Source: Jonesiaceae bacterium BS-20
Lineage (GTDB): Bacteria > Actinomycetota > Actinomycetes > Actinomycetales > Cellulomonadaceae
Direction of reading: 5' to 3'
Length of the DNA stretch: 64,000 nucleotides
Assembly (NCBI GenBank): GCA_039995105.1
Contig: CP146203.1
Location: forward strand, 1,550,001-1,614,000
Below are positions 15,624 to 63,118 of the stretch, in pieces. The number at the start of each line of letters is the position of its first letter. The stretch's first letter is position 1. The notes under the pieces are model-generated. The model did not search any database. It had not been told where the DNA came from and saw nothing but the letters and a program-made list of their open reading frames with translations. Position numbers and translations under genes: made by a program.

Positions 15624-15731
15624 CTATGGGCAGTTTTTCATGTCCGCTGACACGCTCTTGGCGCCAGTGGTGAACTGCCCACCAGCGGTTACGCCGGCGG
15701 CCACTCTGTTGGGGTTTGTGTTTACTGTCAT
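15624..15731 (-). pseudogene. N-terminal stub of an RVxAGV-tag protein, cut by IS21 copy B
   Basis: The frame begins at ATG 15731 with MTVNTNPNRVAAGVTAGGQF, the same N-terminal tag as three other proteins here. It enters the IS end after about 26 codons and stops at TAG (15626-15624). ATG lies exactly 9 bases after the promoter-like element. The rest of the gene is gone from this window. Confidence 0.8.
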
Positions 15732-15740
15732 GCCCAGTAA

Positions 15741-15749
15741 ATGTGCGGG
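15741..15749 (-). promoter_or_regulatory. CCGCACAT element (spacer 9 to ATG 15731)
   Basis: Reads CCCGCACAT on the minus strand. Exactly 9 bases separate it from the ATG of the truncated tag gene. The upstream gene's hairpin arm (15745-15756) overlaps it. Confidence 0.65.
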
Positions 15750-15800
15750 AGCGCAATGGGTAAAAGCTTCTCATGAGGCCATTGCATTTTGCGCTCCCGC
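15745..15800 (-). terminator. Hairpin after the 15806-16831 gene
   Basis: 12-base arms GCGGGAGCGCAA (15745-15756) and TTGCGCTCCCGC (15789-15800) just past the stop at 15806. There is no T-run. The distal arm contains the CCCGC of the next promoter-like element. Confidence 0.5.
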
Positions 15801-15805
15801 AGTGG

Positions 15806-16831
15806 TTAGAGCAGGCGAGTTACCTTCTCATTTTTGTAGTACGAAGGAATGATGCCGGCAGCGTTCTCCCACGAGTACCCCTGCGTCCGGTCCAGGTCCA
15901 CCCTGGTGTAACGGTCACGAGCTTCACTGGTGTGCGTTAACGTCCCAGTTAACTGGCCGCTGTGCCCGGACCCGTTCTCGCGGTCCATGAGGACAACGTG
16001 CGGGTTCGTGTAAACGGTCTCTCGGTTGTCAGGTAAGTAAATCTCGCCATCCAAGTCGTAAGGCGCGGCGTCAGTCAGGGGTGCATAGTCCAGCACTTCA
16101 AGGCGCATACCTTCATGCCAGTCATGTGGCCCGTTTTCGACAAGCTCCTGAATAGTCTCCCGGTTTGAGTCCAAGTTAGGGTCAATACCCAGGCGGGTAA
16201 GCTCTGCCGTCAGGTAGGTGACGCGGGCTTGTGTGGCTTCCTCGTTGTTTCCTGAGCGAGTGGCAGCAGGGGCGTTGGACATGTGCGGAATGACCGGGGC
16301 TACAAACAGTTGGTCCCCAGTATTTCTTGCCAAGTCAGCAAAGATGTCACTGTCGTCATGGTTTTCAGGAATTTCACGCAAGGTGTCTTGCGCGTCATCG
16401 TCCAGGTCATCTAGGTCAATGCCATGACTGCCCAGGTGGGTGCGCAAAAATTCCTGGTTACCATCCCATTGGGATTCATGGCCCCAGCTTTCAAACACGT
16501 TGTCTGAAGCTCCTTGGGCGTCACCTCTCATGATGGATGAGATTTGCTCATCGGTGAGTTTGTCATCGTGCCCAACATAAATTGCAGTGTGGTGCTCATC
16601 GTCGTACATGTCTTGAACCGCGGCGGTTAACGCTTCACGATTCTCTGGAGTGTCTTCAAAATCCGGGCTGTAGGTGAAGACGTCATCTACGGTTTCCTCC
16701 ACCTGGCTCTTGGGCTCTGTCGCGCTTGGGGTCAAGGAAACCTGCGGTTCCATGCGTGTGCCAGTGGTGAACTGTCCGCCGCTCGTTACACCTGCAGCTA
16801 CCCGGTTTGGGTTATACGTTTGTGTGGTCAT
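15806..16831 (-). CDS. RVxAGV-tagged backbone protein, 341 residues
   Basis: Start ATG 16831 sits 9 bases after the CCGCACAT element. The N-terminus reads TYNPNRVAAGVTSGGQFTTG, then MEPQVSL. The remainder is soluble, acidic and Asp/Glu/His-rich (DDEHHTAIYVGHDDKLTDEQ, DDLDDDAQDTL). It ends in GIIPSYYKNEKVTRLL. I recognise no catalytic motif. The shared N-terminal tag, followed by unrelated bodies in four proteins, suggests a targeting or processing signal. The acidity would also suit a DNA-mimic type anti-restriction protein, but that is a guess. Confidence 0.6.
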   Translation of the reverse strand: MTTQTYNPNRVAAGVTSGGQFTTGTRMEPQVSLTPSATEPKSQVEETVDDVFTYSPDFEDTPENREALTAAVQDMYDDEHHTAIYVGHDDKLTDEQISSIMRGDAQGASDNVFESWGHESQWDGNQEFLRTHLGSHGIDLDDLDDDAQDTLREIPENHDDSDIFADLARNTGDQLFVAPVIPHMSNAPAATRSGNNEEATQARVTYLTAELTRLGIDPNLDSNRETIQELVENGPHDWHEGMRLEVLDYAPLTDAAPYDLDGEIYLPDNRETVYTNPHVVLMDRENGSGHSGQLTGTLTHTSEARDRYTRVDLDRTQGYSWENAAGIIPSYYKNEKVTRLL

Positions 16832-16840
16832 ATCTAGTGA

Positions 16841-16849
16841 ATGTGCGGG
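16841..16849 (-). promoter_or_regulatory. CCGCACAT element (spacer 9 to ATG 16831)
   Basis: CCCGCACAT on the minus strand, 9 bases before the start of the 341-residue tag protein. It lies only a few bases past the stop of the upstream gene (16854). Confidence 0.65.
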
Positions 16850-16853
16850 GCTG

Positions 16854-17411: not shown

Positions 17412-17420
17412 ATGTGCGGC
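17412..17420 (-). promoter_or_regulatory. CCGCACAT element (spacer 9 to ATG 17402)
   Basis: GCCGCACAT on the minus strand, followed by ACATTAGGT-ATG. No Shine-Dalgarno is possible if transcription starts at the ATG. Confidence 0.65.
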
Positions 17421-18531: not shown

Positions 18532-19905
18532 TCACGCAGCGACGAGTTGCAACTGCTTCTCTAGATCAGCGATGGCGTCGGGCCTGAAGCCTGACCATGC
18601 CATTTCCAGCCCTGTCGCTTCATCTTGGGCGATGACAACTGGTGCGGACTGGAACCCTCGCTCCTGCACCATTGCCATGGCCTTATCATCCTTGGTGATG
18701 TCTACGACGTTGTATTCCATGCCTTTCGCATCCATCGCTCGGTAGGTTGCGTCGCACTGGACGCAAGGGGTCTTGGAGTAGACGGTAATAACGTTTGCAG
18801 ACATGGGCTGTTCCTTTGTGTGGCGGTGATTAACTGTTCGCTCTGGCGAGCTCGTATTTGGTAAATGTGCGGGGGATTTCATCGTGGGGTAATTGTCTTC
18901 AATTGCATTGGCAAGGTCGTGTAGGTTTTCCTGCACAACACTTTCCAACCGTTTGAAGTTTTCTGCTCCACTGATGCCCGCCTCATCATTTCGACGTTGC
19001 ATGACCGCGAGCCGGTCCGCTGTGTCATTCATGACGTCCCCGGAATGCCCTTTGACCCATTCGAATCGAACTTCCGGCCGGTCCCCCATGTACATCAAGG
19101 ACCGTTGTAAGGATCGGCCCGCACGGGTGGGAGCTGCAATGTGCCCCTGCACAGCTTCTTGTGCCAGGCGGATTGCGTACTGTGAATCAGACCTGACAAT
19201 GAGGGTGCACTGGGCTCCGCGGTGGGCTTTTACTGCCGCCAAAATTGCAACCAGCTCAGCGTCACCGATGTCCATGCCTTCCACCATTCCGGTGAAGAAT
19301 GCCCCATCGTGACGCACCCACGCGAACCCGGCATGCTTGCGCCCGTTACGTTGGGAAGCGTCGGTGGCAACCAGGATTGGCTGCGGTACGCCTGTGACCG
19401 CTACTTGCCCAGCGTGAATGTACTTTTGGCACTGGTATTCGGTGAGTTTGGTTGCCACTAGCCCATTGCCTTCAATCGAAATGACATCAGAAGCTGGAGC
19501 TATCGAGAAGAGCGCGTTATGTCGCACGAGTTCCCGCATGGCCATTCGCAGTATGGGGCTCACAATCGCCAGGTTCACCATGAGGTCAACCTCGGTGGAG
19601 AATCTCTGGCGGATGCTGTCGTCAATGATGTCTAGGACCGGTCTTGCTGCGAGTTCAAACACGTTGACGTCTGGGCTGTGGTGTTCAACCTTGGTGACGT
19701 CCAGGTCGCCGGTCAAAATCATATGGGCGCCATCTCGGCACGTTACGGCACAAGTCCATGCAACGTATCGGGTTGCAACGTGGCGCATTACTAGGGTTGC
19801 CTGAAGCGGTTCAAGAACCTGCACTGCACGAGTTGGAGGGCTTGTTTTGCCCATGAGGGAGCTGAGGTGAGAAGGTTTCACCGCCCTGGTTGCTGTAAGA
19901 GTCAT
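18532..19905 (-). CDS. RNase HI domain protein fused in frame to NrdH glutaredoxin
   Basis: One open frame of 457 codons. Residues 1-150 are unassigned. Residues about 158-290 are RNase HI with the catalytic acids in VATDAS, GDAELVAIL, VRSDSQYA and DTADRLA. Residues about 368-457 are a full NrdH redoxin (CVQC motif, TKDDKAMAMVQERGF, WSGFRPD), the electron donor of class Ib ribonucleotide reductase. The joint (SPAHLPNTSSPERTVNHRH) is what an intergenic region would encode: it contains a promoter-like element and AAAGGAACAGCCC before the NrdH ATG at 18804. Free NrdH (18532-18804) and a fusion could both be made. ATG 19905 is 9 bases after the element. Confidence 0.75.
   Translation of the reverse strand: MTLTATRAVKPSHLSSLMGKTSPPTRAVQVLEPLQATLVMRHVATRYVAWTCAVTCRDGAHMILTGDLDVTKVEHHSPDVNVFELAARPVLDIIDDSIRQRFSTEVDLMVNLAIVSPILRMAMRELVRHNALFSIAPASDVISIEGNGLVATKLTEYQCQKYIHAGQVAVTGVPQPILVATDASQRNGRKHAGFAWVRHDGAFFTGMVEGMDIGDAELVAILAAVKAHRGAQCTLIVRSDSQYAIRLAQEAVQGHIAAPTRAGRSLQRSLMYMGDRPEVRFEWVKGHSGDVMNDTADRLAVMQRRNDEAGISGAENFKRLESVVQENLHDLANAIEDNYPTMKSPAHLPNTSSPERTVNHRHTKEQPMSANVITVYSKTPCVQCDATYRAMDAKGMEYNVVDITKDDKAMAMVQERGFQSAPVVIAQDEATGLEMAWSGFRPDAIADLEKQLQLVAA
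18865..18873 (-). promoter_or_regulatory. CCGCACAT element inside the RNase HI-NrdH frame
   Basis: CCCGCACAT lies in the coding frame upstream of the NrdH ATG (18804). The predicted start of transcription, 10 bases on at 18855, is an A. The leader then carries AAAGGA before the ATG. This suggests separate nrdH expression. Confidence 0.55.
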
Positions 19906-19914: not shown

Positions 19915-19923
19915 ATGTGCGGC
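19915..19923 (-). promoter_or_regulatory. CCGCACAT element (spacer 9 to ATG 19905)
   Basis: GCCGCACAT, then AGGGACGAT, then ATG of the RNase HI-NrdH gene. Confidence 0.65.
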
Positions 19924-21027: not shown

Positions 21028-21036
21028 ATGTGCGGC
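21028..21036 (-). promoter_or_regulatory. CCGCACAT element upstream of the structured-RNA region
   Basis: GCCGCACAT. The predicted start 10 bases on (21018) is a G and no coding start lies nearby, so it probably drives the RNA region and orn. Near-perfect inverted arms GCGTGGGCGCC (21004-21014) and GGCACCCACGC (21034-21044) flank it. Confidence 0.55.
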
Positions 21037-21078: not shown

Positions 21079-21273
21079 TTACACAAGGGCAGGGTCCCCT
21101 TCAAGGGATTCTTGCACGGCCTGGACCTTCATTGCTGGGGCGTCGAGCAGGTCCTTGCGAGTTGGTCCGTCAAGGCCTCCTGCCTCTTTGCGTCTGCGTT
21201 CGTTGAGGCGGGCACGGTTTTCCTGGGTGCGACGTTCAACGTTGCGTGCGTGCAGGTTGTTTCTGATCTTCAT
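21079..21273 (-). CDS. Small basic protein of unknown function, 64 residues
   Basis: ATG 21273 follows TTAGGAGCAGCAA, a good ribosome binding site. The product is highly charged (RNVERRTQENRARLNERRRK) and helical, with a Gly/Asp turn and an acidic end. It could be a nucleic-acid-binding or structural small protein. The promoter-like element lies about 60 bases upstream, so this gene has a conventional leader. Confidence 0.6.
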   Translation of the reverse strand: MKIRNNLHARNVERRTQENRARLNERRRKEAGGLDGPTRKDLLDAPAMKVQAVQESLEGDPALV

Positions 21274-21332: not shown

Positions 21333-21341
21333 ATGTGCGGC
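21333..21341 (-). promoter_or_regulatory. CCGCACAT element (long leader to ATG 21273)
   Basis: GCCGCACAT. The predicted start base 21323 is a G. The leader contains a GTGTGGC/GCCACAC hairpin before the ribosome binding site. Confidence 0.55.
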
Positions 21342-22255: not shown

Positions 22256-22264
22256 ATGTGCGGG
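22256..22264 (-). promoter_or_regulatory. CCGCACAT element (spacer 9 to ATG 22246)
   Basis: CCCGCACAT, then GTACTGAGC, then ATG. Confidence 0.65.
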
Positions 22265-24419: not shown

Positions 24420-24428
24420 ATGTGCGGC
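24420..24428 (-). promoter_or_regulatory. CCGCACAT element (spacer 10 to ATG 24409)
   Basis: GCCGCACAT. This is the one close case with a spacer of 10 rather than 9. Confidence 0.6.
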
Positions 24429-24490: not shown

Positions 24491-25522
24491 TTACAGCATG
24501 CAGGAGACGCATTCATCTACGTCTGTGCCTTCCAACGCTAGTTGGCGAATGCGTGCGTAATAGATTGTCTTGATGCCTTTACCGAACGCATAAATTTGCG
24601 CCCGGTTCAGGTCCCGGGTTGTGGCCGTGTCCTTGAAGAACAAGGTGAGTGACAGGCCTTGATCAACGTGCTCGGTTGCTGCCGCATACACGTCGATGAT
24701 TGCTTCAGCACCAATTTCGTACGCGTCGGTAGCGTACTGAAGGTTCTCGTTCGTCATGTGCGGCACTGGGTAGTACACGCGCCCTAGCTTGCCTTCCTTG
24801 CGGATTTCGATCTTGGAAGCGATTGGGTGAATTGATGACGTGGAGTTGTTGATGTAGGAGATAGATCCTGTTGGTGGGACTGCTTGCAGGTAGGCGTTGA
24901 ATAGCCCGAACGTTTGAACTTTCCCTGCCAGTTCTGCCCATTGAGTTTGCGTGGGGACTTGCACACCCGCTTTGTTGAATAGGGCTTGAGCCTGAGCGGT
25001 CTTGGGCGCGAATGACTGGTGCTTGTACTTGTCAAAGTAGGTGCCGTCCGCGTAGGTGGACTTCTCGAACCCTTCGAACGTCTCTCCCAGTTCAAACGCC
25101 AAGGTCATTGATGCTTTGATTGCGTGGAACGCGACGGTTGAGAAGTAGGCGGATACAAAATCCACTGCTTCTGGGGAGTTGTAGTGCACCCCTTCGCGGA
25201 TGAAGTACCCGTGCAAGTTCATTTGGCCAAGGCCGATGGCGTGTAGCTTGTCGTTGCCTTCGCGAATGGACGGCACCGCGTCAATGCTCGTTTGACGGGA
25301 TACCTGGGTCAGCGCCCGGATAGCGGTTTCAACGGTGCTCCCAAACTTGTCCCCTGCGTCCATTGACAAGGCAATGTTCATTGAACCAAGGTTGCATGAA
25401 ATGTCATGGCCGATGGTGTCATAGGACAGGTCTGCGTTGTACGTTGACGGTGAGTTCACCTGCAAGATTTCACTACACAAGTTGGACATGTTGATCCGAC
25501 CAGCAATAGTAACCGCGTCCAC
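24491..25522 (-). pseudogene. nrdE: Class Ib ribonucleotide reductase alpha subunit, C-terminal half only
   Basis: 343 codons match the C-terminal half of NrdE (about 700 residues in full): [47 protein letters not shown], and the final redox tail CVSCML. Upstream the frame meets a stop (TTCTAACGG) and all similarity ends at about 25525, where the Mau-like cassette begins. The N-terminal half is not in this window. The host chromosome may supply NrdE, or the missing half lies elsewhere after rearrangement. As read, the gene cannot make an active subunit. Confidence 0.85.
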
Positions 25523-30359: not shown

Positions 30360-30368
30360 ATGTGCGGC
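30360..30368 (-). promoter_or_regulatory. CCGCACAT element (leader of 49 bases to ATG 30301)
   Basis: GCCGCACAT. The predicted start base 30350 is an A. A good ribosome binding site precedes the ATG. Confidence 0.55.
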
Positions 30369-30651: not shown

Positions 30652-30660
30652 ATGTGCGGC
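30652..30660 (-). promoter_or_regulatory. CCGCACAT element (spacer 9 to ATG 30642)
   Basis: GCCGCACAT, then AGAAGAGTC, then ATG. Confidence 0.65.
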
Positions 30661-31180: not shown

Positions 31181-31189
31181 ATGTGCGGC
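31181..31189 (-). promoter_or_regulatory. CCGCACAT element (spacer 9 to ATG 31171)
   Basis: GCCGCACAT, then ACCGTCAGT, then ATG. Confidence 0.65.
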
Positions 31190-31413: not shown

Positions 31414-31971
31414 TCAAGCCCGACGCTTACTGTGAATGAACTGCCACGCTTGACCGATTTCGAAGTCCGAAAGCCCCCAATGTATCGGCGGGGTGATGTA
31501 CCTGGCGGCAAGTTTTGGTGTGGATGGCCTGGCAACCCGGTGAGTGCGTAGCGCTTTCCTGTGGCGCCTAACGACCGACTGGTAGTCCTCTAGCAGCAAG
31601 ACTTTGCTCCACGACCCGGTCTCGAGAAGTGCCAGCATTGACGCTGATTTGTCGTGAGTGAGCTGAACTGGCAAGTACGGGATCGCGGGTAGCTCTCCAC
31701 CTGAATCGCTTGGGAAATCCTCAGTGAAACTATCCCAGCTCGTCAGCCAGTACAGGTCGACAAGCGGATGTGCGGCTAACGCGTTAACAAACTTGATGAC
31801 TTCCTTACGGATGTGGACGGTAAAGCCCATGGACCGAAACTCCACCCACTCATGGTCAGGGTTGGCGATTGGCAACTCCCACAGCCGGTGCAGCCCATCA
31901 ACGGCGACGGGACTGACGACCCAGTCAAAGTCCAAGAGGACGAGGGTTCTTTGGCTCGGTTCTGCATCCAT
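31414..31971 (-). CDS. HAD-like phosphatase domain protein
   Basis: 185 residues. The first HAD motif is modified: VLLDFDWVVSP keeps the DxD pair of DxDGV-type enzymes. YWLTSW gives the Thr/Ser motif, and VLLLEDYQ could supply the last acid. It resembles small actinobacterial and phage HAD proteins of nucleic-acid end repair or nucleotide dephosphorylation. ATG 31971 follows CTCAAGG. No CCGCACAT element precedes it; it is divergent from umuD. Confidence 0.6.
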   Translation of the reverse strand: MDAEPSQRTLVLLDFDWVVSPVAVDGLHRLWELPIANPDHEWVEFRSMGFTVHIRKEVIKFVNALAAHPLVDLYWLTSWDSFTEDFPSDSGGELPAIPYLPVQLTHDKSASMLALLETGSWSKVLLLEDYQSVVRRHRKALRTHRVARPSTPKLAARYITPPIHWGLSDFEIGQAWQFIHSKRRA

Positions 31972-36472: not shown

Positions 36473-36481
36473 ATGTGCGGC
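36473..36481 (-). promoter_or_regulatory. CCGCACAT element (spacer 9 to ATG 36463)
   Basis: GCCGCACAT, then AAGTGTCTT, then ATG. Sequence similarity with the copy at 39741 extends through this element. Confidence 0.65.
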
Positions 36482-39740: not shown

Positions 39741-39749
39741 ATGTGCGGC
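39741..39749 (-). promoter_or_regulatory. CCGCACAT element of the duplicated fragment (spacer 9 to ATG 39731)
   Basis: GCCGCACAT, now in front of an 18-codon remnant and facing the C39 cassette, so it may send transcripts into the cassette's upstream region. Confidence 0.6.
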
Positions 39750-40755: not shown

Positions 40756-40802
40756 GTTCCCCTTATGTGCGGCAGTTTCGTGCCGCACATAAGGGGAACA
40801 TG
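40753..40802. promoter_or_regulatory. 50-base palindrome holding two opposed CCGCACAT elements
   Basis: 22-base perfect arms (40753-40774 and 40781-40802) flank GTTTCG. Each arm contains GCCGCACAT, a 9-base spacer (AAGGGGAAC) and ATG, so both divergent genes start inside the palindrome. Minus-strand element 40765-40773 serves ATG 40755; plus-strand element 40782-40790 serves ATG 40800. Confidence 0.75.
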
Positions 40803-42518: not shown

Positions 42519-42527
42519 ATGTGCGGC
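42519..42527 (-). promoter_or_regulatory. CCGCACAT element (leader of 43 bases to ATG 42466)
   Basis: GCCGCACAT. The predicted start base 42509 is a G. Confidence 0.55.
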
Positions 42528-43568: not shown

Positions 43569-43608
43569 GCTCAGTGCCGCTCTTACTACCTATGTGCGGC
43601 ACTGAGCT
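43569..43608 (-). promoter_or_regulatory. CCGCACAT element inside an inverted repeat
   Basis: The element GCCGCACAT (43592-43600) sits between perfect 12-base arms GCTCAGTGCCGC (43569-43580) and GCGGCACTGAGC (43597-43608). The predicted start 43582 is a G. The repeat lies 50 bases past the stop of the upstream gene, so it may end that transcript and start the next. Confidence 0.6.
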
Positions 43609-48837: not shown

Positions 48838-48841
48838 GAGA

Positions 48842-52115: not shown

Positions 52116-52170
52116 GATTCATCCTCTCTGCAAAGCAGTTCAAGCCTTGCAATTTAGGCGACAAAGATTA

Positions 52171-53502: not shown

Positions 53503-54174
53503 CTACGGCATGTAAACTGCAGCACGGGCAAGGTGACTTCGACGTCGGCGGGACCGCGTGTCAACTGCCCCGGGAGTGTTGAGGACAATGAAGGCTCTGT
53601 CGATGGCCGCAATGACCTCTTCCTTGAACGTCGCGTCAAATGGGTTGGTTACATACCCGTTGACAAGCTCTGCAGGTAAACCTTGATTGGAGCTATGTTC
53701 GTCCGCGGTTGGGGTGTCCCTGCCTTGGATTTGGATAATGACTCCACCGCGGGCCCGTATAGCCTCAGCTTCATTAGCGAACCGGACGTCAGTTAAGACA
53801 ACATTTGCTGTACTGTCCGTCTCAAGTAGCAGGTCAAGGTCACGCATGACTGCGTCTGCCCACAGTCCGTCGCCAAGCACATCGCGCACCCCTTCGGTGG
53901 CGAGGCGCTCAAGGAGGCGGCGAACGTCAGGGATTTGGGACTTTGCGTCGTCCCACCCCACCTTGGCCAGGACGTCTGTCAAACGGGCGTAAGGGCGCAG
54001 TAACCCGGTCCGGGCGTTACGCATGGTCCATGGCACCTTGATGTACGGGTTCGTTGCTTCACACACGTCGCGGAGCTTGTCTGCAAAGGCCATTCGCGTG
54101 AACCCCACGTCTGTGAGGTAACTTCCGGCCGTGTCTTTCCCGGACCGTTTCAATCCGCTGAAACCTACAATCAC
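53503..54174 (-). CDS. Deoxynucleoside monophosphate kinase
   Basis: 223 residues. P-loop GLKRSGKDTAGSYL, then FADKLRDVCEATNPYI, VLTDVRFANEAEAIRARGG and the lid region. The arrangement matches phage T4 gene 1-type dNMP kinases and their cellular relatives. It phosphorylates dNMPs for DNA synthesis. ATG overlaps the upstream stop by 4 bases. It belongs to the nucleotide set; its 3' end abuts cargo, and the odd basic tail (RSRRRRSHLARAAVYMP) may come from the junction. Confidence 0.8.
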   Translation of the reverse strand: MIVGFSGLKRSGKDTAGSYLTDVGFTRMAFADKLRDVCEATNPYIKVPWTMRNARTGLLRPYARLTDVLAKVGWDDAKSQIPDVRRLLERLATEGVRDVLGDGLWADAVMRDLDLLLETDSTANVVLTDVRFANEAEAIRARGGVIIQIQGRDTPTADEHSSNQGLPAELVNGYVTNPFDATFKEEVIAAIDRAFIVLNTPGAVDTRSRRRRSHLARAAVYMP

Positions 54175-55736: not shown

Positions 55737-55745
55737 ACCAAATGT

Positions 55746-55754
55746 ATGTGCGGC
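55746..55754 (-). promoter_or_regulatory. CCGCACAT element (spacer 9 to ATG 55736)
   Basis: GCCGCACAT, then ACATTTGGT, then ATG. Confidence 0.65.
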
Positions 55755-55775
55755 ATACGTGGTGCGGAAACAATA

Positions 55776-55810
55776 AAGGCCGGACCACTCTAGGGGAATG
55801 GTCCGGCCTT
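55776..55810 (-). terminator. Terminator of the tRNA transcript
   Basis: 12-base arms AAGGCCGGACCA and TGGTCCGGCCTT. It lies about 110 bases past tRNA-Thr and before the next promoter-like element; a short T-rich stretch follows (TTTATTG). Confidence 0.8.
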
Positions 55811-55920
55811 GCGGCAAGTTATGGCACTTGCACCCTGTATGCATATGCGGATCACATGCAAAGCCCCAGCACTCCATAACATTTCCAGGGTTCTCCCGGT
55901 GCTGGCCGTAAGCTTCCCTG

Positions 55921-55992
55921 AGCCTTCTATCGGATTCGAACCGATGGCCACCCGTTTACAAGACGGGTGCTCTACCACTGAGCTAAGAAGGC
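55921..55992 (-). tRNA. tRNA-Thr, anticodon TGT
   Basis: 72 bases. Acceptor GCCTTCT/AGAAGGC, D-arm AGCTCAGTGGTAGAGC, anticodon arm CCCGT-CTTGTAA-ACGGG with TGT, T-arm ATCGG-TTCGAAT-CCGAT. All consensus positions are present. CCA is not encoded. It lies on the transcript from the element at 56335. Confidence 0.9.
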
Positions 55993-55997
55993 TTGCT

Positions 55998-56029
55998 CCC
56001 TGGTTCAACAAGGGGGTATTGAACCAGGG
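55998..56029 (-). other. Hairpin between the tRNA genes
   Basis: 11-base arms CCCTGGTTCAA and TTGAACCAGGG with a 10-base loop, just before tRNA-Thr. It may guide processing of the precursor. Confidence 0.5.
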
Positions 56030-56037
56030 TGCTTGTT

Positions 56038-56111
56038 AATGCAGGTGACAGTTTTGAGCGCCAGTTCCTAAACCTAGGGGGTGTTTAAGACGTGGCAGTG
56101 TCACTTGCATT
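56038..56111 (-). ncRNA. 74-base rod-like structured RNA candidate
   Basis: Outer arms AATGCAGGTGACA and TGTCACTTGCATT pair over 13 positions with one mismatch. GCCA/TGGC and TAAAC/GTTTA pair inside. It is tRNA-sized but has no T-loop. It could be a small RNA, a spacer structure or a degenerate tRNA. Confidence 0.3.
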
Positions 56112-56113
56112 AG

Positions 56114-56182
56114 TCGAAATGGCAGGATTCGAACCTGCTGACCTCAACTGGTGAGGTGGCGTTTCCACTTACGCCCATTTCG
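56114..56182 (-). tRNA. Atypical tRNA-like gene, apparent anticodon CAG
   Basis: 69 bases with a full cloverleaf: acceptor CGAAATG/CATTTCG, D-arm GCGT-AAGTGGAA-ACGC, anticodon arm ACCTC-ACCAGTT-GAGGT, T-arm GCAGG-TTCGAAT-CCTGC. Odd features: C instead of T before the anticodon, G at position 8, and a 2-base variable loop. CAG would be Leu, but Leu tRNAs have a long variable arm. It may be a decayed or unusual tRNA. Confidence 0.55.
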
Positions 56183-56334
56183 TTTGGCGGCAGGTACCAC
56201 TCGAAGGCGAGATGGATCCTTCATGTCATGGTGGCCCTTCGTTTCATCTTCCCTGAAAGACAGTCTGAAAAAAGGAAGATGAGCGACGTTCACCGCCCCG
56301 CTAAAACTGTTGTGCCTTAGCGTCTGGTGTTCAT

Positions 56335-56343
56335 ATGTGCGGC
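56335..56343 (-). promoter_or_regulatory. CCGCACAT element of the tRNA cluster
   Basis: GCCGCACAT with predicted start base A at 56325 and only RNA genes downstream. Its presence before tRNAs shows the element acts on transcription, not translation. Confidence 0.6.
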
Positions 56344-56390
56344 ATTTCTAGTTCCAGCGCATTTTCATGCAACGAGTTTTCCCGAACTGG

Positions 56391-57086
56391 TTAATCAAGC
56401 TGCGTGAACTTGGAAACCTCCCACGATTTGGCGTCATCTGCGAGCATGAGCGTGATTTCTAGGTCATTCTCATACCCTCCAAATCTGACCCATGCCACGT
56501 GTGCTGTGGGCCCTGACGCCACGATCTGTCCCTTGGGTTCCCCAAAGTCAGCTTTGATCATTGCTGATTCAAAGTTAATCAGCGCGAACAGGTCCGCGGC
56601 CATCAGTGGCTCTATTGCCTTGGCCCACTGGTCAAACGGGCGCTCCGTATTGGACCACTCCTGAGCGAACTGCACCGCCGTGTTAAGTGCAGCTTCTCCA
56701 GCTGCAGCTTCTGCGGCATCGCTATCGGGATGTGCGTGGTTGTCCTGGGAGTCCGACCCCTCGGCGTACTGCCAGACAGATTCCCGGTTCTCCGGTCCGC
56801 CAGGTCCAAGTTCATAGTGGTCCAGAGCCGGGTCCTGATATGTGGGATCGTCCTCAGGTGCCTCAGTGTCTGGGGTGGCTCCTGGTTCCAGACCGTCGCT
56901 GCCGGCAGCGTCCGTGTCGGTGGATGGATCCGCGGCGTCAGGTGATACCAGTTCGTCCATTTCAACTTCTGCGCCTGGTCCGGTGACAGAAGACTGCTCA
57001 GGGGAACACCCTGCACTCAAGACAAGCAGGCCAGCTATGACAGGTGCCACGTACCGCCAAGACTGGCGGCGTTTCCGCTCGATCAT
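56391..57086 (-). CDS. Conjugation-region lipoprotein, 231 residues
   Basis: Basic N-terminus, hydrophobic core and lipobox VLSAGC. A long acidic Asp/Pro/Glu-rich linker leads to a C-terminal domain of about 110 residues (ALNTAVQFAQEWSNTERPFD, HVAWVRFGGYENDLEITLML) that resembles the NTF2-like periplasmic domain of VirB8/TcpC-type proteins. ATG overlaps the stop of the transglycosylase-M23 gene, so it is part of the same operon and probably the mating channel. Confidence 0.55.
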   Translation of the reverse strand: MIERKRRQSWRYVAPVIAGLLVLSAGCSPEQSSVTGPGAEVEMDELVSPDAADPSTDTDAAGSDGLEPGATPDTEAPEDDPTYQDPALDHYELGPGGPENRESVWQYAEGSDSQDNHAHPDSDAAEAAAGEAALNTAVQFAQEWSNTERPFDQWAKAIEPLMAADLFALINFESAMIKADFGEPKGQIVASGPTAHVAWVRFGGYENDLEITLMLADDAKSWEVSKFTQLD

Positions 57087-58900
57087 AAGACTCCCCGTGC
57101 TCGTAGAAATGGTGCTGGGTCAATGTATTGACCGTTGACTTTCATCTCAAAGTGCAGGTGCGGTCCAGTGACCCCACCTGTTGCCCCTGCTAGCCCGATC
57201 TGCTGGCCGGCAACCACCTTATCGCCTACTGCCACATTGAATTTAGACAAGTGAAAGTAGTGAGTAATCACACCGCCAGGGTGCTCAATCATGACCGCGT
57301 TACCAGCGCTACCCCAATAGCTTGCGCGGGTGACGGTGCCTCCTGTGGCGGCATATAGCGGGGTGCCAGTGCCTACACCAAAGTCTGTCCCTAGGTGCAT
57401 TTTCTGGTAACCCAAAATGGGGTGGCGCCGCATACCGTATGGCGAGGTGATGCGTGCCCCTGGTTTCGTGGGGAATGCCCATTCACCTGTCACAGCCCCG
57501 GATGATTCGTCTAGACCCGTCCCGGCGTTCCCAAACACTGAAACGTGCACGTGGTCAAGGTGCATGCTGGTGGCGTCGGTAGCTCCAGATGGGTGGCTGT
57601 ATGGTTTCCACTGATCTTTGGGCTGGGATGGGTACCAGTATTTTGCGTCCCAGATAATGTAGTTCACACCGAAGGCTGCTGCGTTGTCTTGAATCCACGA
57701 CGCCCATGCATCGCCCGTTTTGCTGGTGGTCCGCCAGTTAGGGACCATGAGGTCAACAGCGCGCCCTGCGGGATGGTCACTCTTTGAGTTGGTGGGGCGG
57801 TCCCCCACCCCGCCGATGTTGCCCGCGCTAATGGAATACTGTGCTGCCACGCAGCGCGCCAAGTTCAAGGCGTCGGGGGTGAGCCCCTTCTCTGGACTTG
57901 CAGGGACCAGTGCAGGGCAGTTCATAGGCGCTCCACCGGTGCCGCACCCATCAAGTGCGCTGGAACCGGTCACGTGTGCGTACACTGCCCGAGCGGTGGG
58001 TTCATGTTTCGCGTATGCGTCTGGGTGCCCGGAACGCTGAACGGTTTGGGCCGCAACGGTCACGGCCATGTCCTGCCACCCTGTTACTTTGAGCAGACCT
58101 TCGTAGAACTTTGTGGACGCATACGTTGGGTCGGTGATTTCATCGATGTCTCCCCATCCTTGGGATGGTCGCTGTTGAAACAGTCCGGCGCTGTCCCGGT
58201 CACCACCATCTAAGTTCACCAAGGTGGATTCCTGCATGGCCGTGGCTAAGGCAATGATGATGCCGTACGTCGGTACGTCAAGGTCCTTGCCTACGGTGAT
58301 GATTGTGCGCGCGTTACCGATATGTTCTTCGGTGAGCTTGCCACCTGAATGCCACGTTGGCCCGTCACCTTCAACTGTTGAGGGTGCAGCCGTGTCGGCA
58401 ACGCATTCGCCGCCTACTTCCTTTTGGCCCAGTACTTCCTCTTCGCTGACTATGGCTGCCACTGCCATGTTCACTGCATTGAGTGCGGCAAAGGCTGCAA
58501 GCATTCCACCAACAAGCAGGACCACAAGGTTGATGGTGATTACCTTGCGGGTGAAACCAACGACCTTTTGACCTGTCTCAGATTTTGCGACCTTGTCTGT
58601 GACCGCTGCAGCGGCTTTACCCACTGCCACGTTGCCACCGGTTGCTGCGGCTGCCAGGCCGCCTACTGCGGTGCTTGCACCAGCAGTTAGTGCAGCGTCA
58701 GCTTTCTCCCCAGCTGTAGTGGAACTATCCATGAGGGTCGCCGCGGTGGTTGCTGCTGAAGATAACTTGCTCTGCCCAGCTGCGCCTGCAACGGCCCCAA
58801 CTGCTTTGGCTGCCCCGGCACCTTTCGCCTGGGCAGATGAGCGATCAGGCGCCGGTGGTGCACCACTGGGATCAGGTGTAGGTAAATCGTCACTGGTCAT
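57083..58900 (-). CDS. Cell-wall hydrolase with transglycosylase-like and M23 domains
   Basis: 605 residues from ATG 58900 (9 bases after the element). An Ala-rich N-terminus and a membrane span (VITINLVVLLVGGMLAAFAA) precede a lytic-transglycosylase-like segment (GIIIALATAMQESTLVNLDG, SAGLFQQRPSQGWGD). A spacer and a C-terminal M23 peptidase follow, with MHLGTDFG and HLHFEM as zinc ligands. Such enzymes open peptidoglycan for type IV secretion in Gram-positive conjugation. It sits between the TrbL-like and lipoprotein genes. Confidence 0.85.
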   Translation of the reverse strand: MTSDDLPTPDPSGAPPAPDRSSAQAKGAGAAKAVGAVAGAAGQSKLSSAATTAATLMDSSTTAGEKADAALTAGASTAVGGLAAAATGGNVAVGKAAAAVTDKVAKSETGQKVVGFTRKVITINLVVLLVGGMLAAFAALNAVNMAVAAIVSEEEVLGQKEVGGECVADTAAPSTVEGDGPTWHSGGKLTEEHIGNARTIITVGKDLDVPTYGIIIALATAMQESTLVNLDGGDRDSAGLFQQRPSQGWGDIDEITDPTYASTKFYEGLLKVTGWQDMAVTVAAQTVQRSGHPDAYAKHEPTARAVYAHVTGSSALDGCGTGGAPMNCPALVPASPEKGLTPDALNLARCVAAQYSISAGNIGGVGDRPTNSKSDHPAGRAVDLMVPNWRTTSKTGDAWASWIQDNAAAFGVNYIIWDAKYWYPSQPKDQWKPYSHPSGATDATSMHLDHVHVSVFGNAGTGLDESSGAVTGEWAFPTKPGARITSPYGMRRHPILGYQKMHLGTDFGVGTGTPLYAATGGTVTRASYWGSAGNAVMIEHPGGVITHYFHLSKFNVAVGDKVVAGQQIGLAGATGGVTGPHLHFEMKVNGQYIDPAPFLRARGVL

Positions 58901-58909
58901 ACCCCATAT

Positions 58910-58918
58910 ATGTGCGGG
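58910..58918 (-). promoter_or_regulatory. CCGCACAT element (spacer 9 to ATG 58900)
   Basis: CCCGCACAT, then ATATGGGGT, then ATG, directly after the terminator of the upstream gene. Confidence 0.65.
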
Positions 58919-58946
58919 GACCACCCGGGTCAAGGTCCGGTGGCAC

Positions 58947-58987
58947 AGAAATGCCCTGCCAGTTATTTCCAGTGGCAGGGCATTTCT
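58947..58987 (-). terminator. Terminator after the TrbL-like gene
   Basis: 14-base arms AGAAATGCCCTGCC and GGCAGGGCATTTCT, starting 13 bases past the stop at 59000. Confidence 0.85.
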
Positions 58988-58999
58988 ATGAGGTGTTAC

Positions 59000-61900
59000 T
59001 TACCAGTCGACTTTCTTTGGCTCCTTTACGGGCGCGGTGGGCTTACCCACATCCCCTTGCTTGTCCGCTGGCTGAGAGTCAGACTTCCCGGGGCCGGCCA
59101 CGGGTGCAGTGCCCTTCTTACCAGCAGGTTGTGGTGCAGGTTTTGCAGGGCTAGTCCCAGTGGTGGTTCCCTTCTTGCCGCCTCGTTGAGGGGCAGGCTT
59201 GGTAGGACCAGTACCGGTGGAAGCTGGCTTCTTACCTGCAGGTTGAGGCGCTGGCTTAGCAGGACCTGCCTGGTTCGTTGACCCAGTTCGCTTCGACGGT
59301 TCACCAACTGGTTTGGTTGGCTTTGCATCTGTCGGGCGGCCCGGCGTGCCCAACGGATTGCCTTCTGGTTTTGCTACTGGGCTATCTGGCGCGGCCGTGG
59401 GCTTTGCGTCCGGCTTCGCCTCACCTGCAGTCTTCTGCACACTTTCAGCCTGAGCCTTACGCAGTCGGTGATGCACTACTGCCCCCTGGCGTGCTTGACG
59501 AGCGCGGCCGATTTCCTTTGCGCCTATCACTGCACCAATTACTGGGGCGGCGAGCCCACCTGTAGCTACTGTGAGCAGACCAAGACCAACTGCCTTCTTT
59601 GCTGCCTTTGCAGGCTTGGCCTTGAAGTTCTCCTTGATCTGGTGCATACGTTCCGACAGTGCTTCACGTGCGTCGCCTGCCAGTCCTCCACCGTAGCCGC
59701 GACGGTCAACTGCCTCTTCACGCTTGGCCTTTGCATTTGCTCGGACTTTGGCTTCAAGTACGGCGGCCGCGCCAATTACTTCACCGACGCGAGCTTCACC
59801 GGTGCTGACTCCCGCGTCTTCAGCCGTTTGCTTGCGCTTCTCACGAGCCTCAGCACGTTCCTTCTTTGCTGCAGCCTGTTCAGCGGCCTTTGCTTCCCGT
59901 CGCTCGCGAGGGGTGGTCGTCGTTTCACCTGCTGATGTTGTGTCCGCTGCCGTCTGTACAGGCTCGGTAGCGTCTGTTGCACCCTGTGTTACCTCAGGGG
60001 TGTCAACCGCAGGCGATTCACCCTCAGGAGTGCCAACGGAACGACCCTCATCGTCACGAGCTGGCTTGTCAGCAGTAGGACCTGCCCCAGTGGACGCTGG
60101 ACCAACAGTACCCTGGCGGGCGGCCGCTGCAGTCGTACCTGCCGCTGCACCAATACCAGCGCTTACTAGTGCCGTAGCTGCAGTTGACGGTCCAACCGTT
60201 GCCCCGGCGCGCGCAGCTGTCCTACCGGCGCTTCCACGCGCGGCACCACGCACGGCGCGGTGAGTGGCCGCAGTAGCAGCAAAACTTGCTTGACGTCCAA
60301 TTCTGCTGCCCAGTCCGCTGCCGCTCACGGCGTTACCAACGTTGCCGCTTCCAATGGCTTGGCCCCAGGCTTTCGCGCCACCCAGTGACAATGGCGAAGG
60401 TACCTTAAGGACCTTCTTGAAAATCCAGTGCAAAGCGTACACGGATAGCAGCGGCGAAATGCCCGTGCCGAGCATGGCTGTGATCGTGCCGGCGCCAAAG
60501 CTGAACACGAATGCTTGCTGCATGATGCCAGAGAACAGGGCAATGATGGAGAAGACCAGCACCATCCCAAAGACACCAAACGCAGTACCAATGTAGATCT
60601 TTGCGGCTTTACCCAATGCTGATGAGTCGCCTGTGCCGGGCAAGAGGTCTTTCAGGGCCACGAACATGAAAGAGAACGTCAGGACACCAAGTAGGAGTTT
60701 TCCTAAGAAAATTGCCAGACCAAGCAGCCCAAACACCAGCAGCACCATCACCGAAGAGAACAGGTATGCACCCATCATGATGATTGCTCCGCCAGCATCC
60801 GAACCGCCACCGTGTAGTGACAGCAAGAAGTCCCGTGCTTCAGGAGCGTTCAAGGTGTCACTGACGGTGTCGCTAGCTTTGCCAGAGAAATCAATATTGG
60901 ATTTACTGCTGGTGGCAATGCCTTTCAGGCCGTCCTTGGTGTAATAACTGTCGTTCCACCACGATGCGCAGTCATCCGGTGTAATAGGTCCGCGACCGGT
61001 CCCAAAAATGCCGGCCCGGTCAACCTTCAACCAGTCCCCAGCAACAGTCCAGTTCCCCTTAGCGTCCACCCGGCAAGCAGCCCAGGCAACCTGTGAACGG
61101 TCGCGCGGCTCCATCTCGTCACCGGTCCCCCAGGCTGCTGACTGCAGGTTTGGTTCCGGCAGTTTCCCACCCACATGCCTAGCAGCTGCAGCCGCTGTAC
61201 CGGACTGAACTGCAGGGGAAATACCCGCACGCTCTTCCAACAGACGGCAGTACATGTAGTCGCCGTACGGGTTATTGGTGCCGTATTGGGCGTCAATCCA
61301 GGCTCGCAGTCCAGTTTGCTCCCACATCGACGACAAGATCAATGGGACAGAAGATTCCAACGAACGAGCCATAGCAGTGTGGCCGCCTGCAGAGTCCACG
61401 TACCGTTGCGAAAGGATTTTCGTGTACGCGTCGCAGCTCAACGCCTGACTGTCCTGCTTGGTCCCATCGTTCGTGAAGGACTTGGTGTCAATGGTCAACG
61501 CTACGGCTGGTGCAGAAGCCAGTGCACTGACCGTGGTATTTACAGTTTGTGCAAGCCAGCCAGGTGACATCAGCCCTGGCTCGTACGTTCCAGCTGTGGT
61601 GCCAGTGGACTTGCCTGCACCGACCATCATGGCCGCAACAAGCCCGGCGGTTACAACCATGCGGGTGATGTATTTCCAGTCCATCCCGCGTCCGCGGATT
61701 GCTCGAAACAGCAGGGCAAGTACACCGGCCACTGCCAAGATGGAGACGATCCCTGATTTGAAGATTGCCCCGCTGACCTTCGCAACGGCTTTATCAATCG
61801 TGACGCCGAAGTACTTCGTGAGGTCAAACTGAATGGCCGCTTCGGTAATGGAAGTTGCCACTGAAAATGCGAGGTTACCAAGACCCAAGTACATGGGGGT

Positions 61901-62221
61901 GGTCATGTCCCGTTGAATGCGAGTGGCAAGGTCCGAGATGATCCCGTCACCTGTGCGGAAGTGCAACTTGTCAGTACCTGACCTCCAGCGCTGAGCAGGA
62001 AGCAAGTTCTTCTCACCAACGGGAGGCTTTGCCCCCTTGCAGCCCAAGTAGTAGCGGTCAATGTCTGACAGTTCGCCGAGCGAGCACCTTAACGGCTCCA
62101 TGGCCAAGAGTGTTACTGGCTGGGCCATCACCACCTGTGCCGGGGCGGCACTGGCAGGCGCGATGACAACAAGGGGTGCAAAAATTGCTAGCAGCAGTCC
62201 AAGCAGGATGCGACGGGTCAC
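59000..62221 (-). CDS. TrbL/VirB6-like channel protein with a long disordered tail
   Basis: 1073 residues. Signal peptide (LLGLLLAIFAPLVVIAPASA), outer segment, then several spans (ILAVAGVLALLFRAI, SSVMVLLVFGLLGLAIFLGK, FGVFGMVLVFSIIALFSGI, FVFSFGAGTITAMLGTGI). Residues after about 640 are Ala/Lys/Glu/Pro-rich with coiled-coil-like stretches and repeats of PAPQPAGKK type, ending near KKVDW. The plan matches actinobacterial SCO6881/TrbL-type proteins that form the inner-membrane channel. Stop and start overlaps link it to the PrgI-like gene. Confidence 0.7.
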   Translation of the reverse strand: MTRRILLGLLLAIFAPLVVIAPASAAPAQVVMAQPVTLLAMEPLRCSLGELSDIDRYYLGCKGAKPPVGEKNLLPAQRWRSGTDKLHFRTGDGIISDLATRIQRDMTTPMYLGLGNLAFSVATSITEAAIQFDLTKYFGVTIDKAVAKVSGAIFKSGIVSILAVAGVLALLFRAIRGRGMDWKYITRMVVTAGLVAAMMVGAGKSTGTTAGTYEPGLMSPGWLAQTVNTTVSALASAPAVALTIDTKSFTNDGTKQDSQALSCDAYTKILSQRYVDSAGGHTAMARSLESSVPLILSSMWEQTGLRAWIDAQYGTNNPYGDYMYCRLLEERAGISPAVQSGTAAAAARHVGGKLPEPNLQSAAWGTGDEMEPRDRSQVAWAACRVDAKGNWTVAGDWLKVDRAGIFGTGRGPITPDDCASWWNDSYYTKDGLKGIATSSKSNIDFSGKASDTVSDTLNAPEARDFLLSLHGGGSDAGGAIIMMGAYLFSSVMVLLVFGLLGLAIFLGKLLLGVLTFSFMFVALKDLLPGTGDSSALGKAAKIYIGTAFGVFGMVLVFSIIALFSGIMQQAFVFSFGAGTITAMLGTGISPLLSVYALHWIFKKVLKVPSPLSLGGAKAWGQAIGSGNVGNAVSGSGLGSRIGRQASFAATAATHRAVRGAARGSAGRTAARAGATVGPSTAATALVSAGIGAAAGTTAAAARQGTVGPASTGAGPTADKPARDDEGRSVGTPEGESPAVDTPEVTQGATDATEPVQTAADTTSAGETTTTPRERREAKAAEQAAAKKERAEAREKRKQTAEDAGVSTGEARVGEVIGAAAVLEAKVRANAKAKREEAVDRRGYGGGLAGDAREALSERMHQIKENFKAKPAKAAKKAVGLGLLTVATGGLAAPVIGAVIGAKEIGRARQARQGAVVHHRLRKAQAESVQKTAGEAKPDAKPTAAPDSPVAKPEGNPLGTPGRPTDAKPTKPVGEPSKRTGSTNQAGPAKPAPQPAGKKPASTGTGPTKPAPQRGGKKGTTTGTSPAKPAPQPAGKKGTAPVAGPGKSDSQPADKQGDVGKPTAPVKEPKKVDW

Positions 62222-62613
62222 TTTGAATTAACATCCTTTGGAACGGGAACGGTGTTGATAGCTAAAATGTGGACCCCAATATTCAACGGGTCGACACGGC
62301 GCCCACCGATGAAAAACTGACCGCTTTCGCTGCGCCACTTGTCGCGCTGCGTAAACACCCACAAGCGACCGCCGCTGCCCTTGCTGGTATAGGTAATAAG
62401 TGCGAGGAAGCCCGCAGATAGGGCCAGAGAGACCAAGATGCCTGGCAGGCCGATCAGTGAAATTACTACAGCTGTTGAGATGGCAAAGAAGACAATAGTG
62501 ATCACGAAGTTTCGAATCTGCTTCTTTGTGCCTTCAAAAATACCCACCGGCAAAATGCGCTGAGCATCCGCTTTCTTACCGGTGAGGTTGGTCAGCATGT
62601 ACATATTCCACAT
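62218..62613 (-). CDS. PrgI/TcpE-like small membrane protein
   Basis: 131 residues with two adjacent spans (FVITIVFFAISTAVVISLIG and GILVSLALSAGFLALITY) and a C-terminal cytoplasmic part. The small two-span layout directly before a TrbL-like gene matches PrgI/TcpE family mating-pair components. ATG 62613 follows AAAGGCCCC. Family assignment rests mainly on size and context. Confidence 0.55.
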   Translation of the reverse strand: MWNMYMLTNLTGKKADAQRILPVGIFEGTKKQIRNFVITIVFFAISTAVVISLIGLPGILVSLALSAGFLALITYTSKGSGGRLWVFTQRDKWRSESGQFFIGGRRVDPLNIGVHILAINTVPVPKDVNSK

Positions 62614-62645
62614 GGTGCAAGGGGCCTTTCAATAGTGGCTAGTGA

Positions 62646-62683
62646 CTAGTGCGCCCCTCCTTACACAGGTCAGGGCGCACTAG
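62646..62683 (-). terminator. Hairpin between two conjugation genes
   Basis: 11-base arms CTAGTGCGCCC and GGGCGCACTAG, 20 bases past the stop at 62702. There is no T-run. It may set the ratio of the pilin-like to channel transcripts. Confidence 0.55.
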
Positions 62684-62701
62684 GAAATGTTCGCAATGGC
62701 G

Positions 62702-63031
62702 TCAACTCAAGAGAGCGACAACCGTATTGACGACAAGGGAAAATAGCGTCAGCATTACGGGCACAAGAACGTTGGGGGCAGCCAACAGTGCGCCAAGCCC
62801 TCCGGTCCAGCCAATTGCTGCCGCGTTGGCGTTACCCCGCTTCTTCTGCCAGAAGTAGGTGACGATCGCTCCAAAGAACAGGGCCACACCAACCCACGTG
62901 GCATACATCATCAAGGTCTTGAAGTCGCCGGTGTTGATCTTGGTCCAAAAACTCGTCCATCCAGCAGTGAGGTTAATCTTCTCCGCTGCCAGAATGACAC
63001 CATCAGTCATTGGGTCAAACTGCTTTAACAT
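62702..63031 (-). CDS. Small membrane protein of the conjugation operon
   Basis: 109 residues, ATG 63031 after CACGAGGAGAACTC. Two hydrophobic segments (MMYATWVGVALFFGAIVTYF and LLAAPNVLVPVMLTLFSLVV) separated by a short basic loop. Size and position suggest a TcpD- or VirB2/TrbC-like component. No sequence-specific motif confirms this. Confidence 0.5.
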   Translation of the reverse strand: MLKQFDPMTDGVILAAEKINLTAGWTSFWTKINTGDFKTLMMYATWVGVALFFGAIVTYFWQKKRGNANAAAIGWTGGLGALLAAPNVLVPVMLTLFSLVVNTVVALLS

Positions 63032-63064
63032 GAGTTCTCCTCGTGTTCCGTTAATTGCTGTCTC

Positions 63065-63118
63065 TACTGGTCAACATGCGCAGGAGCCCCTAGGCACGTT
63101 GACCAGTAGATGTGCGGG
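63065..63118 (-). promoter_or_regulatory. CCGCACAT element with adjoining inverted repeat
   Basis: CCCGCACAT at 63110-63118, predicted start base A at 63100. 12-base arms CTACTGGTCAAC (63065-63076) and GTTGACCAGTAG (63098-63109) lie directly downstream of the element. They may end the upstream transcript or serve as operator. The ATG (63031) has its own ribosome binding site. Confidence 0.55.

Follow-up and report, generated by a model that had tools for sequence, protein, structure and literature searches.

Introduction

Sigma factors encoded by phages or plasmids and reading single-element promoters are known, an example being gp55 of phage T4 and its late promoters. Leaderless promoters of the TANNNT type are known from actinobacteria; in the passages of two reports that describe them, a −10-like element lies ~10 bp before the start, transcription begins at a purine, C is the commonest base at −1, no Shine–Dalgarno (SD) sequence is present, and no −35 motif was found in M. 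tuberculosis (PMC3898074, PMC3160421). For the start-associated sequences (SAS) of cluster K mycobacteriophages, the scan sequence given in the relevant part of the report, GGGATAGGAGCCC, contains AGGAG (PMC3203893). The present work concerns a 9-mer, SCCGCACAT (S is G or C), which recurs in a 64-kb stretch of the chromosome of Jonesiaceae bacterium BS-20 (the window, positions 1,550,001–1,614,000 of the 3,529,542-base contig CP146203.1) and throughout the integrated mobile element to which this stretch belongs. Probably, a divergent sigma factor encoded by the element controls a regulon that spans the replicon and whose transcripts would mostly be leaderless; we infer both the transcription start sites (TSSs) and the pairing of the sigma factor with the promoter from sequence.

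The Motif and Its Distance to Start Codons

The window contains 24 copies of SCCGCACAT, compared with 1.39 expected by shuffling (100 shuffles, maximum 6), and 23 of them are on the minus strand. At 13 sites (12 minus, 1 plus), an ATG is located exactly 9 nt 3' of the 9-mer, and at one more site (24420) the distance is 10 nt; with an ATG frequency of 0.0151 per position in the element, about 0.4 of the 24 copies would have an ATG at 9 nt by chance. A preliminary description of this DNA had listed about 22 upstream sites, 14 of them with a spacing of exactly nine bases and one with ten. The exception at ten stands, while the count of 14 is one too high, because the divergent mates (40765 and 40782) were already in that list. 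Three of the 24 copies, all on the minus strand (18865..18873, 24756..24764, and 31768..31776), lie deep within genes called with our own codon-usage script and are probably there by chance.

As an approximate extent of the element, 1,503,500–1,652,000 of the contig (148.5 kb) was taken. SCCGCACAT occurs in it 58 times, with an ATG at distance 9 in 34 cases, and the next commonest distance accounts for five sites. None of 300 permuted words reached more than four sites at any single distance to ATG, versus 34 for CCGCACAT. The ATGs so placed open at least 60 codons in 29 of the 34 cases, versus 27% of all ATGs. Only 5 of the 58 copies are deep inside called genes; had the motif been just as frequent within genes, with no preferred spacing, this would have spoken against a promoter-like role. 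Many element genes have no motif in register, so that the earlier suggestion that the motif sets the start codons of the backbone genes does not hold for all of them.

On the whole contig, SCCGCACAT-N9-ATG is found at 37 sites, 34 of which fall between 1,504,351 and 1,649,586; the backwards control gives none. The three sites outside the element are at 1,403,779 and, as a pair, at 2,115–2,116 kb, where the matched 21 bases are identical to those of window sites 30652 and 31181. Eight control stretches of the same chromosome (160 kb) contain a single SCCGCACAT, without an ATG at 9 nt. Being nearly confined to one region of the chromosome, the motif belongs to a single element. What had been called a replicon-wide signal is indeed one, the replicon being a mobile element integrated in the chromosome, together with a plasmid family, and not the host chromosome. 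The N9-ATG form was present in 25 of the 99 genomes searched (the host included), usually once. Motif sites also recur as pairs: one pair is found twice in the element (contig 1,523,575–1,524,310 and 1,634,875–1,635,609), and the pair at 2,115,613–2,116,162 lies 0.5 Mb away.

The Integrated Element and Its Relatives

Among the proteins of the element with Pfam matches are type II/IV secretion ATPases, a T2SSF protein, an AAA_10 ATPase (which we label VirB4-like), an NAD-dependent ligase, a PD-(D/E)XK nuclease, and a 1582-aa methylase/helicase; matches to nrdE and nrdF lie within the window. The AAA_10 ATPase shares 43–48% identity with proteins encoded on eight megaplasmids of Arthrobacter, Pseudarthrobacter, Paenarthrobacter, and Curtobacterium; for the remaining 13 of 21 plasmid records, the identity is below 28%. 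Near the plasmid AAA_10 ATPases the nuclease and a DNA helicase recur, by annotation, as does a DNA methyltransferase in pACHL01. Given this identity and the recurring neighbour genes, we take the element as an integrated relative of the Arthrobacter/Curtobacterium megaplasmids of the pACHL01 type; the core genes that these share, encoding the AAA_10 ATPase and the candidate sigma factor discussed below, are present in it. A phage origin, considered on account of PHROG matches to tape-measure and endolysin proteins, was dropped, since the T2SSE/T2SSF and AAA_10 genes with their megaplasmid relatives point to a plasmid-type element. A search with window positions 44000–64000 gave no DNA match in phages.

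In three plasmids of this family the word changes and the register stays. Counts of word spacing gave CCG(C/T)ACACA for pACHL01, CCGCACACAT(AGG) for the A. caoxuetaonis plasmid, and CCGCGCATAGG for Curtobacterium pS16, and in all three words the first C lies 17 bases before the start codon (−17); diverged words such as CCGCACACATAGG and CCGCGCATAGG all keep CCG at −17. An ATG is in register at 67 of 178 sites in the A. caoxuetaonis plasmid, 77 of 157 in pACHL01 (CCGCACACA), and 25 of 88 in pS16, while 300 permuted words gave at most four sites at any one distance. Spacing statistics over the whole replicon and its relatives thus bear out the register in the element and three plasmids. Related words in the same register were also found in stretches of two further genomes (G136 and G209) and of Arthrobacter terrae; in G042, CGCATA is at −15, one base nearer the start. 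No register signal stood out in the stretches of ISL-65 (12.7 kb), YP2 (21 kb), Nocardioides (20 kb), G252 (14 kb), and pMP7017 (47.7 kb examined).

Three other candidates were set aside. The occurrences of CCGCACAT in Bifidobacterium pMP7017 have the appearance of clustered regularly interspaced short palindromic repeats, 12 of the 19 listed sites belonging to a single spaced repeat next to genes annotated as type I-E cas. The top spaced word of Pseudactinotalea, GAACAT, looks like repeated coding sequence, and this genome was not counted for the motif, though its sigma gene has the motif. Nor was a second CGCATAGA word of A. caoxuetaonis, preceded by GTCAG, accepted as another class: only 9 of 50 sites fit at 6–7 nt, and several look unrelated.

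Promoter or Translation Signal

The motif is very likely a promoter with leaderless starts, with the TSS predicted. The 9-mer would form an extended −10 region, at about −18 to −9, in a promoter that serves the whole integrated element, and transcription would start at a purine, the tenth base after the last T of the motif. At 34 of the 58 sites, this base would be the A of the ATG, giving a leaderless mRNA, and at most of the remaining sites it would be the first base of a short leader preceding a gene. Host RNA polymerase would read the promoter with a strongly diverged sigma-70-family factor encoded by the element itself (gene 1,613,122–1,614,144).

After removal of the duplicate copies 1634875 and 1635589, the 34 ATG sites of the element give 32 distinct ones, and in these the base at −1 is C or T in 32/32, −9 is A in 24/32, and −7 is A or G in 29/32. 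The 24 sites without an ATG in register have nearly the same composition, with a purine at +1 in 22, A at −9 in 18, and A or G at −7 in 22. This is the purine that had been noted where the ATG would be. Nineteen of these 24 sites are outside gene interiors, and 14 of the 19 lie 29–96 nt before a called gene. For the counts of SD-like words at the ATG sites of the element, of −35 boxes, and of 5' structure, repeated sequences were collapsed. At 31 of 33 distinct ATG sites of the element, no SD-like 4-mer (AGGA, GGAG, or GAGG) is present in −20..−4, the two others having one, in accordance with the initial impression that most of these starts lack an SD sequence. Among 84 annotated starts in two 50-kb stretches (coding sequences cut by the stretch ends excluded), SD-like words precede 0/10 starts with the motif in register, 5/9 with the motif elsewhere within 150 nt, and 31/65 without the motif (in register versus no motif, Fisher p = 0.004).

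Two relatives have, in addition, a −35 box. In the A. caoxuetaonis plasmid, GGNGAG (one mismatch allowed) is located at −37..−32 in 52 of the 65 sites that have a start codon and in 55 of the 68 that have none; the corresponding counts for pACHL01 are 57/85 and 44/64. Since the box is equally common with and without a start codon, it indicates promoter architecture and not a translation signal. At the sites without a start, the predicted +1 is a purine in 65/68 cases in A. caoxuetaonis and 41/45 in Curtobacterium. These data bear on two rival readings. A translation-start signal in the mRNA, similar to the start-associated sequences of cluster K mycobacteriophages, would account for the fixed distance to the ATG, but we consider it highly improbable, as 24 of the 58 copies in the element lack an in-register ATG and yet keep the +1 purine (22/24), the sites without a start retain the −35 box in two relatives, and SD-like words are nearly absent. 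A promoter for a phage-type single-subunit RNA polymerase would fit the contiguous conserved block 5' of +1 and the missing −35 in the element; the presence of the −35 box in two relatives makes it exceedingly improbable. A search with PF00940 (T7-like RNA polymerase) gave no match in the host genome or the three plasmids; the control genomes were also silent, so that this search is not decisive.

In all four replicons, the predicted leaderless 5' ends are less structured than positions +41..+70 (p from 3.6e-5 to 2.1e-11). This fits the reading, but bacterial mRNAs commonly have little structure around their start codons. A mean minimum free energy (MFE) of −1.67 was obtained for +1..+30, versus −5.62 for +41..+70. 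At the A. caoxuetaonis sites without a start, the leadered transcripts would open with a structured 5' end at the predicted +1 (mean MFE −6.9 versus −4.0 downstream).

A third rival, in which the motif copies serve as operators for a repressor or nucleoid protein acting across the element and overlap promoters only by coincidence, could explain the high copy number and the inverted pair with identical 21-base arms at window positions 40753–40773 and 40782–40802. It is quite unlikely, because no other −10-like word is conserved there, and the spacing to +1 is mostly fixed to a single base.

Several observations fit the promoter reading less well. The element has no conserved −35, and GGNGAG with one mismatch is found at only 1 of 60 sites there and 0 of 75 in Curtobacterium. 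The +1 purine is weaker at the no-start sites of pACHL01 (51/64), the ATG is one base closer at 20 of the 178 A. caoxuetaonis sites, and five element sites, as mentioned, are deep inside genes. The leadered 5' ends are significantly more structured in A. caoxuetaonis alone (p = 9.8e-5), the values being 0.08 for the element, 0.26 for Curtobacterium, and 0.89 for pACHL01. Even so, a −10-like element giving leaderless mRNA, as first proposed, is the best fit to the fixed register, the +1 purine, the −1 pyrimidine, and the scarcity of SD-like words.

The Candidate Sigma Factor

A Sigma70_r2 scan gave a weak match to one hypothetical protein in each of three replicons, with E values of 0.33 for the element, 0.001 for pACHL01, and 0.001 for the A. 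caoxuetaonis plasmid. In pACHL01, the plasmid of Pseudarthrobacter chlorophenolicus A6, this protein is WP_012623387. The gene of the element's protein (340 aa, minus strand) occupies window positions 63122..64000 and continues to 64144, its 5' end and own motif being just beyond the window. A tblastn search found this candidate in 8 of the 21 plasmid records, precisely those with the close AAA_10 ATPase, and in none of the other 13. It was also found in 5/5 family genomes with that ATPase (in G252 weakly, 6e-17); pMP7017 gave no match, and among viral contigs no relative was confirmed (170 stretches matched a pattern). Seven annotated plasmid records list it as a ‘hypothetical protein’.

Profile searches against the PDB returned mainly sigma factors: 2/2 matches with a profile of three orthologs (best E 0.5), 17/20 with seven (best 0.0013), and 18/18 with thirteen (best 0.0043); the three non-sigma matches of the seven-ortholog profile are BIRC6. 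With Pfam at E up to 1, Sigma70_r2 was matched by 6 of 13 orthologs (best 0.0024) and Sigma70_r3 by 3 of 13. For region 4, the profile search gave a weak collinear second match to SigH. A Foldseek search with the AlphaFold model of the element candidate returned sigma factors or RNA polymerase–sigma entries as the first 12 hits (best E 0.041), and for the A. terrae ortholog the first nine hits are RNA polymerase–sigma entries (E 0.89 or worse). In VIA-align, the best Z is 6.2, and region 2 of BldN has a Z of 5.6 with a root-mean-square deviation of 2.4 over 58 residues; these values are middling on the scale of the tool.

The gene of the element's candidate carries the motif at its own ATG; it would thus regulate itself. 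Among 19 orthologs, CCGC is at −17 in 13, and 11 of these have CCGCAC. Where several in-frame starts are possible, the annotated or tag-bearing one was taken; the lookup covers three of the eight plasmid records, and the stretch L097 was used only up to its frame break (1454–2215). The 19 are not independent: two are from G209, G084 and G510 are of one genus, and pACHL01, A. terrae, and ISL-65 are close. A later search supplied six of the 19, which were thus not used to form the idea; three of these six have CCGC at −17, two of the three being of one genus.

The assignment to the sigma factors has to face a number of contrary results. For the copy in the element itself, Pfam gave no match even at E up to 1. 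Two of the 13 orthologs match the unrelated rubber elongation factor (REF) family with a best E of 0.0027, on par with Sigma70_r2. The AlphaFold models have low confidence, the mean predicted local distance difference test score (pLDDT) being 58.5 for the element candidate and 50.5 for the A. terrae ortholog; no Foldseek hit of either model is below E 0.001, and 2 of 50 rows of the VIA-align table are non-sigma at similar Z (5.6 and 5.4). CCGC is missing at −17 in 6 of 19 orthologs (YP2, G042, G252, G366, G429, and G346). Finally, pACHL01 and the A. caoxuetaonis plasmid also encode an annotated sigma-70 (NC_011879 377249–380221 and NZ_CP099467 336182–337294) with strong region 2 and region 4 matches, that of pACHL01 being WP_081434859.

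The last point leads to the reading in which the same promoter, also giving leaderless mRNA, is read by a host sigma factor or another element protein, such as an activator or the annotated sigma-70 of the two plasmids. The evidence for promoter function is independent of the sigma assignment, and the host genome has ten region-2 matches, the weak one of the element included. In the element, no sigma-70 with strong region 2 and 4 matches was found, nor any Sigma70_r4 match at E up to 1, the only region-2 match being weak and cryptic; the annotated plasmid sigma factors are thus not the shared reader. The variation of the word between replicons and the near absence of the N9-ATG form from the rest of the host chromosome argue against a host factor. 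We regard this reading as possible yet rather doubtful, and the element-encoded divergent sigma factor as the probable reader.

The GGQF Tag and Promoter Subtypes

Many otherwise different proteins of these elements, the candidate sigma factor included, share an N-terminal tag similar to RVPxGVxxGGQFA. In the window, tagged proteins start at 15731, 16831, 17402, and 22246 (minus strand), and the candidate starting at 64144 is tagged as well; the tag is also found in pACHL01 and other relatives. Matches to the sigma profile that consist mostly of the tag alone number 57 in G209, 47 in G259, 34 in G260, 32 in G136, and 7 in G000.

At the CCG(C/T)ACACA sites of pACHL01, the −35 GCGGNGAG (two mismatches and a one-base shift allowed) is missing in 22 of 23 tagged starts and present in 57 of 82 untagged ones. 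Similarly, in A. caoxuetaonis the −35 is missing in 5 of 6 tagged starts and present in 54 of 70 untagged, and in the element the motif reads CCGCACATnnAC at four of the five tagged starts that have it. The missing −35 and the −10 subtype of the tagged genes suggest that there may be two regulons.

A wider reading, which we consider unlikely, is that of a mobile-element family with its own transcription code, in which the GGQF tag would mark proteins carried into the recipient with the DNA. If so, a replicon would have up to ~180 promoter sites, of which about 70 give leaderless mRNA, and these would diverge between lineages together with the sigma factor while the register is fixed; transcription and translation of incoming plasmid DNA could begin immediately, with no need for a host sigma factor or for SD recognition; and the tagged proteins, tens of them besides the sigma factor, would use their own promoter subtype. 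Against the transfer part of this reading, all 21 matching plasmid records are non-mobilizable in PLSDB.

Individual Sites in the Window

Unless stated otherwise, the sites below are on the minus strand. The motif has the form CCCGCACAT at 15741..15749 (ATG at 15731, opening a tagged open reading frame (ORF) of just 35 codons), at 16841..16849 (ATG 16831, 341 aa, tagged), and at 22256..22264 (ATG 22246, 296 aa, tagged). The form GCCGCACAT is found at 17412..17420 (ATG 17402, 182 aa, tagged), at 19915..19923 (ATG 19905, 457 aa, with PHROG matches to RNase H and a thioredoxin domain), and at 24420..24428, the sole exception with the ATG 10 nt off. The sites at 30652..30660 (ATG 30642, 85 aa) and 31181..31189 (ATG 31171, 168 aa) have their identical 21 bases at contig 2,115,613 and 2,116,142, respectively. 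The motif at 36473..36481 precedes an 881-aa gene (ATG 36463) without a Pfam match at E 0.001; its promoter and first 14 codons are duplicated at 39741..39749, where the ATG at 39731 opens only an 18-codon relic. The divergent pair comprises 40765..40773 (ATG 40755, 323 aa) and, on the plus strand, 40782..40790 (ATG 40800, 362 aa, with a match to ATP-grasp R2K_3); within 40753–40802, the two copies are oriented outward, and their 21-base arms, which run from GCCGCACAT through the ATG, are the same. The last two sites with an ATG in register are 55746..55754 (ATG 55736, 521 aa) and 58910..58918 (ATG 58900, 605 aa); the latter gene is overlapped by a 616-aa ORF with peptidase/endolysin and tape-measure PHROG matches.

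Seven further sites have no ATG at 9 nt. Leaders of about 50, 49, 43, and 69 nt are predicted from the motifs at 21333..21341 (predicted +1 at 21323), 30360..30368, 42519..42527, and 63110..63118 to the called genes 21079–21273, 29987–30301, 42035–42466, and 62702–63031, respectively. From 21028..21036 (predicted +1 at 21018), the next called gene is 357 nt away, and from 43592..43600 the next on the same strand is 529 nt away. The only tRNA of the window is a tRNA-Thr (55920–55992, minus strand), and Rfam at the gathering threshold found nothing besides this tRNA. It lies ~330 nt 3' of the +1 predicted from the nearest upstream motif, 56335..56343, so that the use of the motif before tRNAs, previously put forward as an argument for transcription, is weak evidence. 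Two transposase genes (PHROG 1157; 10080–11657 and 13934–15457), each followed by another ORF, adjoin the motif-rich region.

Comparison with Known Systems

Leaderless actinobacterial mRNA and element-encoded sigma factors are both of known kinds. In the literature searched (open-licence PMC papers), no description was found of an element-wide leaderless code with a candidate sigma factor, a drifting word, and a fixed register across a plasmid family, nor of the motif or the GGQF tag, and literal motif strings were unmatched. Little-studied actinobacterial megaplasmids would gain a defined regulon, a candidate regulator, and better start codons, and would be a compact, naturally varied system for the co-divergence of sigma factors and promoters and for leaderless translation served by one dedicated factor.

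The pACHL01-type megaplasmids are the nearest relatives: the AAA_10 ATPase and the sigma candidate are shared with eight records, and the promoter register with the three whose DNA was examined. The copy described here differs in being chromosomal, in its word CCGCACATA, and in having no conserved −35 box.

Compared with TANNNT promoters, as far as the cited passages characterize them, the element has the same −10-like position, purine at +1 (the TSS being predicted here), pyrimidine at −1, and lack of an SD sequence. In contrast, the block here is CCGCACAT(A) without a fixed TANNNT: −10 is T in 32/32 sites (by construction), −9 is A in 24/32, and −5 is T in just 11/32, so that the sites do not fit a TANNNT hexamer, which would lie about 12 to 7 nt before the start. 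The motif is also nearly confined to a mobile element, the word diverges between replicons of the family in one register, and a −35 box is present in two relatives.

The start-associated sequences of cluster K mycobacteriophages, in the part of the report concerned, are likewise short asymmetric words that precede many starts of a mobile-element lineage and are mostly oriented the same way (PMC3203893). The motif studied here differs in having no SD core and in keeping the +1 features where no start codon follows.

With systems of the T4 gp55 type, the element would have in common a specificity factor of its own, here a candidate, which reads a short motif throughout the element. It differs from them in its many predicted leaderless starts, in being of the megaplasmid kind, and in the divergent 340-aa candidate with its N-terminal GGQF tag.

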